From contig NZ_FNZV01000010.1 in assembly GCF_900109555.1 (NCBI RefSeq), positions 1 through 64,000 on the forward strand: DNA of 64,000 nt, given 5' to 3'. Position 1 is the stretch's first letter, and each line of letters opens with the position of its first letter. Position numbers and translations under genes: made by a program. Source of the DNA: Pacificibacter marinus. Its GTDB lineage: Bacteria > Pseudomonadota > Alphaproteobacteria > Rhodobacterales > Rhodobacteraceae. The notes beneath the pieces were generated by a model. That model was not told where the DNA came from, searched no databases, and saw nothing but the letters and a program-made list of their open reading frames with translations. This document shows positions 48,852-57,256 of this stretch, piece after piece.

Positions 48852-49766
48852 TCAGACCCCACGCGACAGCATTTGGCATAATGCATCTAAATCATCTAGG
48901 TCCTTGTAGTTTATAGATAAAATACCACTTTCCGAACCCGATTTATGGGCAATACTAACACTCATACCGATTGCAGCTGATAGATCGCTTTCTAGTGCGC
49001 GCGTATCTGCATCTTTTTCACCTGTAGGCTTCACTACGCGCGTTTTGGGTGATGATGGCATTTTTTCTTGCTTGGCAAGCTTCTCCGTATCTCGAACAGA
49101 CAAGCCCTTTTTGACAACAATACGTGCCAATTCAGATGGATTTTCAGATGTAATAAGGGCTCGAGCATGGCCCGCCGATAAATCTCCCGATACAACAAAA
49201 GTTTGAACATCATCAGGCAACTGCAGTAACCGCATCAAATTAGCAATATGACTGCGACTTTTCCCCAAAGCCTCAGCCAATTTTTCCTGAGTATGCCCAA
49301 ATTTCTCCATCAATTGCTTATAACCAGCAGCCTCTTCAATTGAATTAAGGTCTGCGCGCTGAATATTCTCAATGATTGCAACTTCAAGCACCTCAATGTC
49401 ATCGTACTCGCGCACAATGATTGGAATGTCATGGCGCTTTGCCAATTGAGAGGCACGCCAACGGCGCTCACCCGCCACAATTTCGAAATTTCCCTCGACG
49501 CGTGGGCTTGGGCGCACGATTAAAGGCTGAATAACCCCCTTCTCACGGATGGAATTGGCTAGATCATCCAAATCCTCTTGAACAAATTGACGCCGCGGCT
49601 GATCAGGGTTTGGCTCAACTCGTTCAATTGGGACAACTAAATCAGCTCGACGTGCTCCGCTTACCTGATCGACAACAACAGGATCATTTGGAATATCCGC
49701 CATCAGTGCAGACAATCCACGCCCAAGGCCTCGTGGCCGGTTTGAATTTTTAGGTGGTTGGCTCAT
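48852..49766 (-). CDS. parB: Chromosome partitioning protein ParB
   Basis: A 304-residue CTP-dependent clamp that loads on parS. The N-terminal RGLGRGLSALM is followed by VPIERVEPNPDQPRRQF. The CTP-binding and clamp motif is EIVAGERRWRASQLA, the helix-turn-helix is GKSRSHIANLMRLLQLPDDV and the C-terminal dimer domain ends the protein. Two perfect parS sites lie 1.4-3.3 kb upstream of its start, in rsmG and mnmG. It follows parA by three bases. Confidence 0.97.
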   Translation of the reverse strand: MSQPPKNSNRPRGLGRGLSALMADIPNDPVVVDQVSGARRADLVVPIERVEPNPDQPRRQFVQEDLDDLANSIREKGVIQPLIVRPSPRVEGNFEIVAGERRWRASQLAKRHDIPIIVREYDDIEVLEVAIIENIQRADLNSIEEAAGYKQLMEKFGHTQEKLAEALGKSRSHIANLMRLLQLPDDVQTFVVSGDLSAGHARALITSENPSELARIVVKKGLSVRDTEKLAKQEKMPSSPKTRVVKPTGEKDADTRALESDLSAAIGMSVSIAHKSGSESGILSINYKDLDDLDALCQMLSRGV

Positions 49767-49769
49767 GAC

Positions 49770-50567
49770 TTATCTCCGTTTACTCAATAACTCAGTGGCC
49801 AAAGCGCGATATGCAAGGCTCCCCTTAGAGTTTGTATCATATTCCAAAACAGGAATCGCAAAGGAAGGTGCCTCACTTATACGTACATTGCGTGGAATCA
49901 CGGTTTCAAACACCAGGTCCTGCAAATTATCACGCGCATCTTGCTCGACCTGCCGTGACAAATTATTCCTTTGATCATACATCGTCAAAACTACCCCCTC
50001 AATCCTAAGGTTTGGGTTAGCCGTCTGACGTACTTCGCGCACCGTAAGCATCAATTGTGACAAGCCTTCGAGGGCAAAAAATTCACTCTGCAAGGGTACC
50101 AAAACAGAATCCGAGGCAACCAAGGCATTTACAGTCAGTAAACTAAGTGACGGCGGGCAATCGATTAGAATATAATCAAAAGCATACCCATCAATTGCAT
50201 GCTGACGTAATGCATCATGCAAAAGAAAGCTCCGCTTTTCGTTGGAGACCATTTCTATATCAGCCGATGACAAATCAATGGTTGCTGGTGAGACATACAA
50301 CCCTTCAGTGGGTGAAGCTTGGATGATTTCGCCTATTTCCACATCCCCCATGATTAAATCATAGGTTGTTTTGTCGCGCTGATTAGCGTCAATTCCCAAT
50401 CCGGTCGATGCATTTCCTTGTGGGTCAAGGTCAACAACAAGAACACGCATACCAAGCTCTGTCAGTGCCGCAGCCAAATTTATTGTTGTTGTGGTCTTGC
50501 CTACCCCACCTTTTTGGTTCGCAATTGCAACAATTTTAGCGGATTGTGGTCGAGTTGGATCAGACAC
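49770..50567 (-). CDS. parA: Chromosome partitioning ATPase ParA
   Basis: A 265-residue Walker-type ATPase that moves ParB-parS complexes to the poles. The deviant Walker A is NQKGGVGKTTTTINLAAAL, and VLVVDLDPQGNASTGLG follows. I chose GTG 50567 (SDPTRPQSAKIVAIANQ) because AGGA lies nine bases upstream; longer in-frame options run deep into rsmG. The GTG overlaps the rsmG stop by eight bases, so the two are translationally coupled. Confidence 0.96.
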   Translation of the reverse strand: MSDPTRPQSAKIVAIANQKGGVGKTTTTINLAAALTELGMRVLVVDLDPQGNASTGLGIDANQRDKTTYDLIMGDVEIGEIIQASPTEGLYVSPATIDLSSADIEMVSNEKRSFLLHDALRQHAIDGYAFDYILIDCPPSLSLLTVNALVASDSVLVPLQSEFFALEGLSQLMLTVREVRQTANPNLRIEGVVLTMYDQRNNLSRQVEQDARDNLQDLVFETVIPRNVRISEAPSFAIPVLEYDTNSKGSLAYRALATELLSKRR

Positions 50568-51177
50568 GCTCAATATTCCTAATTCCAAGCACAACGGATT
50601 TGGAATCTGTTGTGCTTTCATGCTCTTCGCATTCAAATTTCCAGATTTTTCGAGCTTGGTCTAGTTCGAAATTATAATTCTCACCCTTAGGGAATAAAGC
50701 AATACCATCTTTGCTTAGGTGTGGTTTCGAAAAATCCAGAAGTTTATCAAGAGGTGCAAGCGCGCGCGCCGACAATACATCGGCATAAGCGGGTGTCATT
50801 TTTTCAATTCGCTCAGAGTGAACTGAAACCGATACATTCACCTCTCGCGCAACACTTCTCAAAAACGTCGCTTTACGTACGTCGGACTCGACCAAATGGA
50901 ACTCTGTTTTTGGTGAAAGCTCTGCTGCTATAATGGCGCAAACAAGCCCAGGAAAGCCTCCGCCTGACCCTATATCCATCCACACTTTAGAATCGTGTGG
51001 CATAAGTTTAAACAATTGAGCAGAATCAGAAAAGTGGCGTGTACTCATTTCCGCGAGGGATGATTTTGAAACCAAATTAATTGCTGGATTCCACTTTTTT
51101 AGAAGCGTTTCGTATATGGTCAGGCGTTCCAATGTTTCACGTGAAACATCGGAAATAGTATTGTTACTTCCAGTCAT
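50560..51177 (-). CDS. rsmG: 16S rRNA (guanine(527)-N(7))-methyltransferase RsmG
   Basis: A 205-residue enzyme that methylates G527 of 16S rRNA, a streptomycin-related site. WNPAINLVSKSSLAEMSTRH, MDIGSGGGFPGLVCAI and the DVLSARALAPLDKLL block are clear. Residues 10-15 (DVSRET) are encoded by the parS palindrome at 51133-51148. VSRET is a recognisable RsmG N-terminal motif in many bacteria. It directly abuts mnmG (stop at 51178). Confidence 0.96.
   Translation of the reverse strand: MTGSNNTISDVSRETLERLTIYETLLKKWNPAINLVSKSSLAEMSTRHFSDSAQLFKLMPHDSKVWMDIGSGGGFPGLVCAIIAAELSPKTEFHLVESDVRKATFLRSVAREVNVSVSVHSERIEKMTPAYADVLSARALAPLDKLLDFSKPHLSKDGIALFPKGENYNFELDQARKIWKFECEEHESTTDSKSVVLGIRNIERV
51133..51148. 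promoter_or_regulatory. parS centromere site (inside rsmG)
   Basis: TGTTTCACGTGAAACA is a perfect 16-bp palindrome identical to the universal ParB-binding consensus. It encodes codons 10-15 of rsmG and lies 5.1 kb from the origin candidate. Confidence 0.95.
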
Positions 51178-53058
51178 CTAACTTGCAACCTTTCCACGAT
51201 TGGCCTGCCTCAATCGAGCAAGAATAAGGGTACATGCCGCTGGGGTCATTCCCTCTATACGCAATGCCTGTCCAATTGTTTGAGGTCGAACAGTAGTCAA
51301 CTTTGATCTGAGCTCGTTTGAGAGACCGCGTAGGCCTGAGTAATCAAAATCATCTGGAATTTCATGCGCCTCATCTCGCTTCATTTTTTCTACATCACGG
51401 TTTTGGCGCTCGATATAGTTTGCATATAGGGCATCGCAAGACAGTTGTGTCTGAATTTCAGGTTTGATTTCTGAAAAATTCTTATTGAGATCAATTAGAT
51501 TTGAAAATGTAACGTCTGGAAAAGAAAGGATTTCATAGGCACTCCGACGGTTTCCGTCTTCACTCACGCCTATGCCTACACTACGCATATCCTTTGAACC
51601 AAAAGTTTCAGATTGAAGTGCGTCGCGTCCAGCGGAAAGCAAAGCCATTTTGTGATTAAAAGCAGTTTTTCTGCTTTCCGAGATCAGACCTAAATCTTCT
51701 CCAAACGGGGTTAAGCGCTGATCAGCATTGTCAGCACGCAAAGTTAATCTGAACTCGGCACGCGATGTAAACATCCGATACGGTTCAGAAACACCTCGAG
51801 TGATAAGATCATCAATCATCACACCGATGTAGGATTGAGAGCGACTGAAATGCGCCTGCTCCAAATTATTGGCACGTCTCGCAGCATTTAAACCTGCAAC
51901 AAGTCCTTGTGCGGCAGCCTCTTCATATCCGGTTGTTCCATTAATCTGACCTGCTAAGAAAAGTCCGGGTACATCGCGCAATTCAAGTGTTGGTCGCAAG
52001 GCTCTTGGATCTACGTAGTCATATTCAATAGCATACCCTGGTTGAAGAATTTCAACGTTTTCAAGCCCCGTGATGGAACGAACATAGGCTTTTTGCACAT
52101 CAGTAGGTAAAGAGGTCGAGATACCATTCGGATAAACTGTGTCATCATCAAGCCCCTCTGGCTCAAGAAAAATTTGATGCGATGTTTTATCTGAAAATCG
52201 AACAACTTTATCTTCAATCGAAGGGCAATACCGAGGTCCAACACCATCGATATGGCCGCCATACATTGCTGATTTTTCAAGGTTTTCTCGAATAATATCG
52301 TGAGTTTTTTCATTGGTGTGTGTGATACCACAGGACACTTGACGTGCGGAAGGTTTACGATTCAAAAATGAAAACATCACTGGATCTTCATCACCAGGTT
52401 GATCTTCAAGAATATCCCAATTTATAGTTTTAGCACTAAGCCGTGGTGGCGTCCCTGTTTTAAGACGCCCCATTGGAAGGCCAAAACCATAAAGGCGATC
52501 TGCCAATGCAATAGACGGTTTATCCCCCATTCGGCCACCAGAATGATTCTGATCACCTATATGGATTATGCCATTTAGAAATGTTCCAGTCGTTAAAACG
52601 ACAGCGCCCGATAGGAGTGCACTGCCATCACCCAAAATGACACCAGATACCTCAGCACCATTCATTAATAGGTCAGTGACTTCACCCTCAACTATGGAAA
52701 GATTTGGCGTATTAGAGAGTTCGTTAAGCATCTCTGTACGGTAAATTTTACGATCAGCTTGTGCACGCGGACCTTGGACAGCTGGCCCTTTTCGGCGATT
52801 AAGAAGCCTATATTGAATACCAGCTTTGTCAGCTATACGTGCCATAACACCATCAAGCGCGTCAACTTCACGTACAAGATGCCCTTTTCCCAAACCACCA
52901 ATTGCGGGATTACAGGACATAACACCAATATTGCCAAGTTTAAGCGTAACAAGCGCCGTTTTTGCACCAGTGCGCGCCGAAGCTGCGGCAGCGTCGGCAC
53001 CTGCGTGCCCACCACCAACTATGATGACATCAAAATCTCGTTGTTTCACGTGAAACAT
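51178..53058 (-). CDS. mnmG: tRNA uridine 5-carboxymethylaminomethyl modification enzyme MnmG
   Basis: A 626-residue FAD enzyme that with MnmE modifies wobble uridine 34. The dinucleotide-binding motif is [40 protein letters not shown] and [18 protein letters not shown] are hallmarks. The first codons (MFHVKQ) are the parS site at 53042-53057. It lies 15 bases downstream of mnmE in the rho-side cluster and abuts rsmG. Confidence 0.98.
53042..53057. promoter_or_regulatory. parS centromere site (overlapping the mnmG start codon)
   Basis: A second perfect TGTTTCACGTGAAACA lies within the first six codons of mnmG, beginning inside the ATG. It is 3.2 kb from the origin candidate. Confidence 0.95.
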
Positions 53059-54388: not shown

Positions 54389-55660
54389 TTATGCATTCAT
54401 CGAATCGAAGAATTCTGCATTTGATTTTGTTTGTTTGAGCTTGGAAATCAAGAACTCAATAGCGTCTGTGGTACCCATTGGGTTCAAGATACGGCGCAAC
54501 AAGTAAGTCTTCTGAAGATCTTTAGAATCGACCAAAAGCTCTTCTTTACGTGTGCCAGATTTGAGAATGTCCATTGCTGGGAAAACACGCTTATCAGCGA
54601 TTTTACGATCAAGAACGATTTCAGAGTTACCTGTACCTTTGAATTCTTCAAAGATAACCTCATCCATGCGCGAGCCTGTATCAATCAAAGCAGTTGCGAT
54701 GATTGTCAAAGAGCCACCTTCTTCAATGTTCCGCGCAGCGCCAAAGAACCGTTTAGGCCGTTGCAATGCGTTTGCATCAACACCACCTGTTAGTACCTTA
54801 CCAGAAGACGGAACCACAGTGTTGAAAGCGCGACCAAGACGAGTGATAGAATCGAGCAAAATCACAACATCACGTTTATGTTCTACAAGGCGTTTAGCCT
54901 TTTCAATCACCATCTCAGACACAGCAACGTGACGTGAGGCCGGTTCATCAAAGGTCGAAGAAATCACTTCACCTTTCACAGAACGCTGCATGTCGGTCAC
55001 CTCTTCTGGGCGTTCATCGATCAATAGAACGATCAAATAACACTCAGGATGGTTTATCCCAATTGACGATGCGATGTTTTGCAACAAAACTGTTTTACCA
55101 GTGCGAGGTGGCGCAACGATTAAAGACCGCTGACCTTTCCCAATTGGCGCAACAAGATCGATGATACGCGCAGAGCGATCTTTGAGTGTAGGGTCTTGGA
55201 CTTCCATATTAAGCCGCTCATCAGGGTAAAGCGGCGTTAGGTTATCAAAGTTAATTTTATGACGGGCTTTTTCTGGATCTTCAAAGTTAATCAAAACCAC
55301 TTTGGTGATCGCAAAATAGCGCTCGTTGTCATTTGGGGCCTGCATTAAGCCCTCAATAGTGTCTCCTGTGCGCATACCAAACTGTCTGATGACCTCTGGC
55401 GACACATAGATATCATCAGGGCCTGGCAGATAGTTAGCTTCAGGAGAACGCAAAAACCCGAACCCGTCTTGCAAAACTTCAATCACACCATTGCCAGTGA
55501 TTTCCCATTCTTCCTCAGCACGCTCTTTCAGGATCGAGAACATCATCTCGCCTTTGCGCATCGTGGAAGCATTTTCGATCTCTAGCTCTTCAGCCATAGA
55601 TAATAGGTCTTTAGGGGTTTTGGCTTTAAGATCAGAAAGGCTAAGGCAATTAACAGTCAT
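54389..55660 (-). CDS. rho: Transcription termination factor Rho
   Basis: A 423-residue hexameric RNA helicase. The N-terminal RNA-binding domain has [20 protein letters not shown]. Walker A is [18 protein letters not shown]; the RNA-binding Q loop [17 protein letters not shown] and [14 protein letters not shown] follow. I chose ATG 55660 ([20 protein letters not shown]) because GGA lies seven bases upstream; an in-frame TTG at 55672 adds four residues. A sigma-70-like promoter lies at 55749-55777. mnmE is just downstream on the same strand. Confidence 0.97.
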
Positions 55661-55748
55661 CGAGACATCCAAACTATGACCGCAAGGCGATCAGTTTTTA
55701 TAATGGTGTGAAATTTCCCATAGACGCCGGACGGCAGGGATTTAAGGT

Positions 55749-55797: not shown

Positions 55798-56250
55798 TCA
55801 GATTGGACGCGCGATGATCATGATAACAATCACTATCATCAAAATTGTAGGAACCTCATTCATCAAACGATATTGTTTTCCCGTTAAACGGTTGTTTCCT
55901 GCAACAAAATCTTTGCGTCTGTAACCACACCAATGATGAAACCACGTCATTGCGATTACGCAAGCAGCTTTGACCCATGACCAACCAGAGCCCCAATCAA
56001 CGATGCCAGGGGTAAAAACTAAGGCTAAACCAAACACCCAGGTCGATACCGAGGCAGGGTTCATGATGAGTTTAAATAACTTTTTTTCCATGTCTTGAAA
56101 TAGCAGATCAGTTTTACTGCCCATTTCAACGTTTTCTGTGTGGCGGACAAATAAACGCGGCAGATAAAATATACCAGCCATCCATGCAATTACGGAAATT
56201 ACATGCAACGATTTGGTCCATGGATACAGGCTTGATAGGAAATCACTCAT
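55798..56250 (-). CDS. hemJ: Protoporphyrinogen oxidase HemJ
   Basis: A 150-residue membrane protein with four hydrophobic helices and the HemJ/UPF0093 pattern: SLHVISVIAWMAGIFYLPRL with a conserved His at residue 16, and VKAACVIAMTWFHHWC, YRLMNEVPTILMIVIVI. It oxidises protoporphyrinogen IX to protoporphyrin, the step before HemH. I prefer ATG 56250 because GGAG is eight bases upstream; a GTG at 56259 is also in frame. It sits directly beside the origin candidate. Confidence 0.9.
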   Translation of the reverse strand: MSDFLSSLYPWTKSLHVISVIAWMAGIFYLPRLFVRHTENVEMGSKTDLLFQDMEKKLFKLIMNPASVSTWVFGLALVFTPGIVDWGSGWSWVKAACVIAMTWFHHWCGYRRKDFVAGNNRLTGKQYRLMNEVPTILMIVIVIMIIARPI

Positions 56251-56656
56251 TCTCGGCACTCCAGTGTTCGTACCCTTCTTAAAATAATATAAGAAAGAAA
56301 GAAAAGATGATGTTGTTTGTAGGGCCTGTGGATAATGGGGATTAATGACTTATCCTAAGATTTTCTACACAAAAAAAATTCTGGAAATAATTTATGACCT
56401 ATTGGGGATAAGATCATAAAAATTGAAATTTAACATAAAGTTATAGATTTATTAAATCATAGATCCCTTTGGATATATTTTGGATAAAATTTTGAAACCT
56501 TTAAAATCCACAAGTCAAAAAGAATCTTTTCCACTTAGGAAAAAGACAGATGAAAATTCGTGAAACTGCCGACTTTTCCCCAAGGATCATCCATGACATG
56601 GTTATCCCGATAAGGGCCAACACAGTTCACACCGGTTTTTCCACAGGATCATCAAC
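56251..56656. other. Candidate chromosome replication origin (oriC)
   Basis: This 406-bp gene-free gap separates leftward hemJ/rho from rightward maf. It has one perfect DnaA box, TGTGGATAA at 56327-56335, and one-mismatch boxes at 56403-56411 (TGGGGATAA), 56479-56487 (TTTGGATAA) and 56637-56645 (TTTTCCACA). Two-mismatch sites are at 56350, 56504, 56527 and 56602. The stretch 56375-56500 is strongly AT-rich and could be the unwinding element. In other alphaproteobacteria oriC lies beside this rho/hem/maf block. The parAB-parS cluster 3-8 kb away and gene orientation diverging from the gap agree. The assignment is inferred, not measured. Confidence 0.8.
56327..56335 (-). promoter_or_regulatory. 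Perfect DnaA box
   Basis: TTATCCACA on the minus strand matches the canonical DnaA box at all nine positions. It lies at the hemJ-side edge of the origin candidate, before the AT-rich stretch. Confidence 0.85.
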
Positions 56657-57256
56657 ATGACCCAAATACTTATTCTGGCCTCGGGGTCGCGGATTCGTCA
56701 GACATTGCTGAGCAATGCAAAGGTACCATTTGAAGTAAATGTGCCGCTTATTGATGAAAATAGCATTAAAGACGCTCTGATCGCTGAAAATACTCCTCCC
56801 CGTGACATTGCTGATGCGCTGGCCGAGGGTAAAGCACGTAAGATTTCAATGAAATTCCCAGAAGCAATCGTGCTGGGATGTGATCAAGTTTTATCCTTTC
56901 GGGGCATGATATTCTCAAAGCCCAACGCCCCCGCGGAAGCTCGTGCACAGTTATCTGAGCTAAATAATGAACGGCACAAACTTCTGTCAGCTGCTGTTAT
57001 CTACGAAGCAGGAGAGCCAAAATGGCGGCATATTGGCGAAGTCCGTTTGCAGATGAAGCAAAACTCTGACGCCTATTTGGATGATTATGTAGATCGTAAT
57101 TGGGATAGTATTCGCCATAGTGTTGGCGGATATAAACTAGAAGAAGAAGGTGCACGGTTGTTTTCCCGCGTCGACGGCGATTATTTTAATGTTCTGGGTT
57201 TGCCCCTTTTTGAAATTTTAGGTTACCTTGGACAAAGAGGAGTGATTTCATCATGA
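56657..57256 (+). CDS. maf: Maf family nucleotide pyrophosphatase
   Basis: A 199-residue house-cleaning nucleotidase. It starts MTQILILASGSRIRQTLLSN, the family's SxSxxR opening. AEGKARKIS and IVLGCDQVLSFRGMIFSKP with the catalytic Asp follow, and SVGGYKLEEEGARLFSRVDG closes the domain. It is the first rightward gene after the origin candidate. Its stop overlaps aroE by four bases. Confidence 0.92.
   Translation: MTQILILASGSRIRQTLLSNAKVPFEVNVPLIDENSIKDALIAENTPPRDIADALAEGKARKISMKFPEAIVLGCDQVLSFRGMIFSKPNAPAEARAQLSELNNERHKLLSAAVIYEAGEPKWRHIGEVRLQMKQNSDAYLDDYVDRNWDSIRHSVGGYKLEEEGARLFSRVDGDYFNVLGLPLFEILGYLGQRGVISS

Follow-up and report, generated by a model that had tools for sequence, protein, structure and literature searches.

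The closest described counterparts of the locus considered here are the chromosomal origins of Caulobacter crescentus and Rickettsia, in which an AT-enriched gap of about 400 bp, provided with DnaA boxes, lies between hemE and COG1806, the Caulobacter gap measuring 404 bp (PMC1914354, Table 1). In the family to which the present genome belongs, the Rhodobacteraceae, origins have been predicted in 101 members on the basis of the GC-disparity minimum, a local GC minimum, proximity to parAB and DnaA boxes (Kopejtka et al. 2019, PMC6699656); the main text of that study contains no occurrence of 'hem' or 'mnm' and describes neither the flanks nor an unwinding core. A further term of comparison is the basal unwinding system (BUS) of Bacillus subtilis, one strand of which carries trios 5'-TAG-3' besides a GC-rich 5-mer (PMC10316083), the trio strand being complementary to 5'-CTACTATTACTTCTACTA-3' (PMC10201434). 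According to published work on B. subtilis DnaA, Asn187 contacts the central adenine of the trio, Arg202 and Glu228 contact the guanine, and cytosine can replace the central adenine, while thymine and guanine cannot (PMC10721633). BUS elements have been predicted in 1,755 of 2,070 origins, with the proteobacterial classes marked on the tree; the alphaproteobacterial predictions are probably contained in the supplement of that study, and the assays in the first part of its results include no DnaA of an alphaproteobacterium (PMC8287927). In the literature consulted, we came across neither an assay of a trio from this class nor a described change at Asn187.

The stretch of DNA analysed here (the window) comprises bases 1-64000 of a 149,666-bp contig in a 43-contig draft genome. 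Between hemJ and maf it holds a gap (Table 1) that the initial annotation had put forward as a strong candidate for the chromosome origin. Like the Caulobacter and Rickettsia origins, this gap is about 400 bp long, enriched in AT and furnished with DnaA boxes; unlike them, it has neither hemE nor COG1806 (ppsR) on its flanks and carries no TTAA-N7-TTAA CtrA site. Since skew, box cluster, duplex instability, parS sites and conservation all point to it, the gap is almost certainly the DnaA-dependent origin of the main chromosome, and the initial proposal is supported.

Table 1. Features in and around the putative origin, in window coordinates
Feature	Position	Strand	Remarks
parB and parA	48852..50636	-	profile match
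parS in rsmG near its start, about codons 10-15	51133..51148		exact match
parS, first six codons of mnmG	53042..53057		exact match
rho	54389..55672	-	profile match
hemJ, left flank	55798..56250	-	TIGR00701 / PF03653
Putative oriC, hemJ-maf intergenic region, 406 bp	56251..56656		box cluster, least stable DNA of contig, contig skew minimum, conservation
Pyrimidine tract TTTTCTTTCTTTCTT, then AT-rich DNA toward hemJ; candidate unwinding side	56291..56305	-
Trinucleotide-periodic, DnaA-trio-like element CTACAAACAACATCATC on box strand	56306..56322	-	conservation; period 3 over relatives
GC-rich spacer GGCC, box to trinucleotide element	56323..56326	-
Exact DnaA box TTATCCACA, hemJ-side core	56327..56335	-	box at corresponding place in genus relatives
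Weak DnaA box TAATCCCCA, 2 mismatches	56336..56344	-	abuts exact box in same orientation, tandem pair
Weak inverted box TTATCCTAA, 2 mismatches	56350..56358	+	TTATCC or TTTTCC here in 8/17 relatives
DnaA box TTATCCCCA, 1 mismatch	56403..56411	-
Stability minimum (50-bp window) of the 149.7-kb contig, mid-gap; candidate DNA unwinding element	56408..56457
DnaA box TTATCCAAA, 1 mismatch	56479..56487	-
Box-like TTTTCCACA, 1 mismatch, doubtful	56637..56645	+	overlaps presumed maf ribosome-binding stretch
maf, right flank	56657..57256	+	PF02545 / TIGR00172; start ATG 56657

A box search and the AT content (66.5% in the gap vs 51.1% in the contig) agree with the first description of the locus as a gene-free, AT-rich gap with one exact and three single-mismatch DnaA boxes. 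Over the whole window, DnaA boxes occur at chance level (13 found, 12.84 expected), and the same holds for exact boxes over the whole genome, where 24 matches compare with 25 for a reversed-pattern control; the genome-wide count of exact boxes was consequently rejected as an origin marker. It is the clustering of boxes in the intergenic DNA that exceeds chance, with four boxes in 397 bp (56260-56656; shuffle mean 0.185, P 0.0002). At one mismatch the genome holds 738 matches, and clusters were compared within the contig, whose densest 400 bp coincide with the gap (four boxes; next best elsewhere, two). The member of the cluster at 56637 may not be real, because it shares bases with what is presumed to be the ribosome-binding stretch of maf, and because it varies in relatives, the site reading TTTTCAACA in 10, TTTTCCACA in six and ATATCCACA in one of 17. 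A second origin beside dnaA was considered and rejected: this gene lies on the same contig (133,304-134,683; TIGR00362), some 77 kb rightward from the gap, and is followed by a putative dnaN (named by eye), and three boxes with at most one mismatch are found at 130-137.5 kb, unclustered over 5.6 kb. CtrA (TTAA-N7-TTAA) and IHF (WATCAANNNNTTR) sites were likewise discarded as gap features, neither being present in the window gap; among the 97 homologous gaps introduced below, at least one such site occurs in 15 and 18, respectively, counts that stand without a chance expectation.

The cumulative GC skew of the whole contig reaches its minimum at position 56,682 of 149,666, 26 bp outside the gap and close to the 56.4 kb at which the initial annotation would have placed it; as the assembly is a draft of 43 contigs, this minimum holds contig-wide only. 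In a relative whose genome is a single contig of 3.71 Mb, the homologous gap lies at 2,092,332-2,092,755, and 20 skew samples of 15 kb were negative in 10/10 cases from 0.37 to 2.05 Mb, positive in 7/8 from 2.22 Mb and positive in 2/2 at 0-0.2 Mb. In other words, one change of sign falls in the interval containing the homologous gap, and the opposite one, between 0.2 and 0.37 Mb, falls where the terminus is expected, half a chromosome away. Moreover, in 20-kb stretches from four relatives, a local skew minimum was found within 2 kb of the homologous gap in three. The fourth (G018) is a counter-case: its homologous gap is at 2.668 Mb, and the sign of the skew changes only 11-52 kb farther right, somewhere from about 2.679 to 2.72 Mb, with one arm negative in 10/10 samples and the other positive in only 7/10. 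This offset may reflect a local rearrangement near the origin. At finer scale in the same genome (L132, L154-L173), skew is negative in four of the six two-kb windows that lie rightward of the gap, counted from 2.667 Mb.

Duplex stability, calculated from nearest-neighbour energies and compared within the contig, marks the gap as well: the least stable windows of 50, 100 and 200 bp start at 56408, 56408 and 56331, respectively, in AT-rich DNA. In addition, the two parS sites announced within 5.1 kb are both present as exact matches, 3.2 and 5.1 kb from the gap, and are the only ones in the genome at zero or one mismatch. Both are read in frame within genes, encoding the start of MnmG, MFHVKQ (53042-53057), and the RsmG peptide DVSRET (51133-51148).

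Pfam and NCBIfam profiles identify HemJ, Rho, MnmE, MnmG, RsmG, ParA, ParB, Maf, AroE (N-domain only), CoaE, DnaQ and SecB, and they sustain the names first reported. The divergence of the neighbouring genes is likewise as first described: rho, mnmE, mnmG, rsmG, parA and parB point leftward, maf, aroE, coaE and dnaQ rightward. The HemJ start is taken as ATG 56250, GTG 56259 being also possible. Of the surroundings of a hemE-type origin, the locus thus has the maf-aroE-coaE-dnaQ and rho-mnmE-mnmG-rsmG-parA-parB flanks and lacks hemE and COG1806/ppsR. The same flanking cluster was seen in other alphaproteobacteria, and it follows the origin in Caulobacter too. In this genome hemE resides on another contig, divergent from hemC, and ppsR (PF03618) gave no match. 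On that other contig (L007, 36-11028), hemE and hemC stand in a row with a hemN-like gene, an Fnr-like regulator and cytochrome oxidase genes, all names other than hemE and hemC having been assigned by eye. Elsewhere in the window, the minus strand at 2825-2974 matches the Ruegeria cis2 sRNA (Rfam RF02645) with 65.9 bits vs a gathering score of 50.

The replacement of hemE by hemJ on the flank had been interpreted as a variant of the alphaproteobacterial origin layout; this is right, yet the variant is usual in the family and not particular to this genome. A search for Maf covered 31 genomes, that of the window included, 18 of them relatives within the genus: hemJ faces maf in all 17 of those that have this maf, and the eighteenth, an 85%-complete genome, yielded a maf paralogue only. 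A scan for HemJ in named genomes was limited to the best 80 of 558 relatives and is therefore biased toward near ones. Among these 80 loci, both hemJ and maf are at the gap in 79 (in the remaining one the contig ends), hemE is at the locus in none, and the gap between matched ends measures 381-494 bp in 78. The locus of Rubricella aquisinus (L100, 5593-6000) has a gap of 1,211 bp with ppsR inside, in the order hemJ-gap-ppsR-maf, an arrangement intermediate between the ancestral layout proposed below and the usual one of the family. In another locus, L245, which is probably from the same genome, hemE lies elsewhere, with no hemC found beside it. Pooling the window, the 17 and the 79 gives 97 gaps, with at least four genomes counted twice; they contain 268 boxes at up to one mismatch vs 9.9 expected, and only three of them are free of boxes.

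Searches for the displaced genes complete the picture. Within the family, HemE was searched in 61 genomes, 59 of which matched and 48 of which were examined (the 30 best and 18 picked among lower-scoring ones): hemE is beside hemC in 40, at the origin position in four and at neither place in four, within the stretch examined. At class level, 76 genomes gave 56 matches, and in the 28 loci from outside the family hemE faces ppsR in 24, maf in two and neither in two. A ppsR gene occurs in 2/149 genomes of the order, with hemE adjoining in both. Most of the Rhodobacteraceae examined thus have hemJ-gap-maf and no hemE at this place, and hemE-gap-ppsR-maf is the arrangement of most other alphaproteobacteria examined and of a few more distant Rhodobacterales. 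In the simplest order of events, the latter would be ancestral. In the loci that show both genes, the two starts lie 1.0-2.3 kb apart, hemJ being downstream of the origin-type hemE, so that the loss of hemE, and of at most about one more gene, brings hemJ to the origin. The losses of hemE and ppsR appear as separate events, because Rubricella kept ppsR without hemE and another locus, L238, shows the reverse, hemE facing maf without ppsR. From their lower HemE identity (47-61%), the family members with the old layout would be deep branches. In genome G026 (L128, 7437-7758), hemE faces maf over a gap of 322 bp, and the counterpart of the trinucleotide element of Table 1 holds a five-unit pure CAA repeat, whose opposite strand is without adenine in any phase.

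Within the genus, conservation is strong in the DNA that leads from the box pair to the hemJ side and poor in much of the remaining gap. Read on the minus strand, this core runs TAATCCCCA-TTATCCACA-GGCC-CTACAAACAACATCATC-TTTTCTTTCTTTCTT and then into AT-rich DNA. At least 12 of the 17 letters of the core motif are matched in 84/97 gaps vs 1/97 shuffled, a descriptive figure, since these very sequences had served to define the motif. A core profile trained on these gaps, with the boxes left out and a score cut-off of P<=0.05, was detected upstream of hemE facing ppsR in 19 of 32 cases (four genomes twice; 15/28 distinct), upstream of hemE at the origin position without ppsR in 2/5, upstream of other hemE in 1/6 and upstream of hemE beside hemC in 0/41. 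The core consequently goes with the origin and not with hemJ, being found at origin-position hemE and in none of the 41 regions beside hemC.

The part of the core adjoining the box pair repeats with a period of three over relatives. The period was measured independently of the published trio rule, in a 24-nt stretch that begins 4 nt beyond the gene-side box. In 81 distinct Rhodobacterales regions, identity at lag 3 was 0.424 vs 0.296, with a z of 11.8 that relatedness inflates; in 28 distinct ones, taken from other families and from old-layout members of this one, it was 0.383 vs 0.296 (z 4.8, diluted by several rows in which the automatic choice of box visibly did not hit the core). Identity at lag 6 is likewise raised (0.357 and 0.341), the remaining lags ranging from 0.264 to 0.305 in the larger set and from 0.211 (lag 5) to 0.333 (lag 9) in the smaller. 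Two controls, the maf-facing strand and far boxes, have no lag-3 excess (z -0.6 and 1.1). A hidden coding sequence as the source of the period seems unlikely by eye, relatives differing by single-base gaps inside the core.

The window thus resembles the B. subtilis BUS in its tandem DnaA boxes, GC-rich spacer and adjoining trinucleotide repeat (PMC8287927, PMC10721633, PMC6669920). The published rule, which asks for a DnaA box with at most two mismatches, a spacer of 0-16 nt and at least three trios 3'-NAN-5' (PMC8287927), picks out in the window a box, a 15-nt spacer and the three trios ATC-ATC-TTT. It does the same in 75/97 gaps vs 23.8 of 97 shuffled ones; about a quarter of shuffled gaps pass, and the rule was set aside as too weak to serve as sole evidence. 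Runs of three trinucleotides phased on C, which corresponds to guanine on the opposite, presumed DnaA strand, were found in 51/81 and 17/28 regions, above all 200 shuffles (means 21.8 and 9.6). Since A-phased runs are about equally frequent (52/81 and 15/28), the following centre-base counts, in which overlapping runs are included, hold for the C-phase only: on the box strand, A 178, T 77, C 46 and G 5 in the 81 regions, and C 47, T 44, A 41 and G 3 in the 28. The centre is therefore mostly A or C, and a central adenine on the opposite strand would need T. In another phase, ATC repeats conform to the published rule.

The DnaA protein differs at the corresponding contact. Aligned to B. subtilis DnaA (8btg), the protein encoded on the contig has Tyr195 at the place of Asn187, Lys210 at that of Arg202 and Glu236 at that of Glu228. 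The comparison was extended to 50 of the 73 class genomes that matched DnaA, namely the 30 top-scoring ones, the present genome among them, and 20 picked by hand, which include the most divergent sequences and thus possibly some that are not true DnaA: the Asn187 position is Tyr in 36, Phe in four and another residue in 10 (one Asn), and the guanine-contact positions are Lys in 49/50 and Glu in 49/50. These data may tentatively be read as a divergent alphaproteobacterial DnaA-trio, in which the repeat beside hemE or hemJ would keep the guanine and drop the central adenine, with Asn replaced by Tyr or Phe in DnaA, and Lys and Glu kept. Such a divergence is plausible because the centre on the presumed DnaA strand is often not adenine, if the C-phase is right, because Asn187 is replaced, and because cytosine is tolerated at the centre. 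A second part of this reading, offered with the same reserve, is that the element would have been kept while the flanking gene changed from hemE to hemJ.

It is also possible, without being probable, that the locus is a standard BUS of B. subtilis type, with canonical 3'-NAN-5' trios and no alphaproteobacterial peculiarity. The yield of the published rule in the window and its relatives, well above that in shuffled gaps, speaks for it, as do the runs of 8-11 NAN trios in some relatives and the canonical CTA step abutting the GC spacer in the window; yet the best candidate lies in the conserved hemJ-side core in only 38/97 gaps (vs 4.3 shuffled), the box-strand centre of C-phased repeats is often A or C instead of T, and the contact residue, a Tyr in this genome, is one of Tyr and Phe in 40/50 of the DnaA examined. 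Somewhat doubtful in our estimate, and worth considering nevertheless, is an origin that opens in its AT-rich middle (56408-56457), as one of E. coli type, with the trinucleotide element put to another use, for example as a hemJ leader. The strong conservation of the hemJ-side core, as opposed to the poor conservation of the mid-gap in the genus, argues against it, and so does a period-3 signal that is located at the gene-side box, is missing in both controls and is present also where hemE is the neighbour; however, no 50-bp window of the contig is less stable than that of the mid-gap, which is flanked by the boxes at 56403 and 56479, and the window complies with the trio rule by three trios only, as does a good part of the shuffled gaps. 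Finally, that the gap is only a divergent hemJ/maf promoter region, with regulatory or chance boxes and the origin elsewhere, is very improbable: it is divergent and probably holds both promoters, and the 56637 box does overlap the presumed ribosome-binding stretch of maf, but the skew minimum falls together with the parS sites and the unstable duplex, and the core is found in many genomes that have hemE as neighbour, never upstream of hemE beside hemC.

Initiation at this origin could proceed as follows. DnaA would bind the boxes of the gap, and an oligomer would extend from the tandem pair (56327-56344) toward hemJ across 56306-56322, both strand and direction being inferred. Opening would then take place in the pyrimidine- and AT-rich DNA beside hemJ and/or in the unstable mid-gap, forks would leave the gap in both directions, and ParB bound to the two parS sites would segregate the new origins.

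Taken together, the evidence gives good support to a chromosomal origin of ordinary kind, situated where the family usually has it, with a lineage-wide change of flanks. What appears to be new is a conserved trinucleotide-periodic element beside the hemJ-side box, placed and oriented like a DnaA-trio. The analysis fixes the position of the origin in a draft genome. Furthermore, for most of the Rhodobacteraceae examined, hemE, which flanks the origin in Caulobacter and Rickettsia, is a misleading guide, and the marker is hemJ-gap-maf. If the divergent trio proves true, this lineage, in which residue and motif would have changed together, would represent a natural test system for the base contact that enables DnaA to open DNA.
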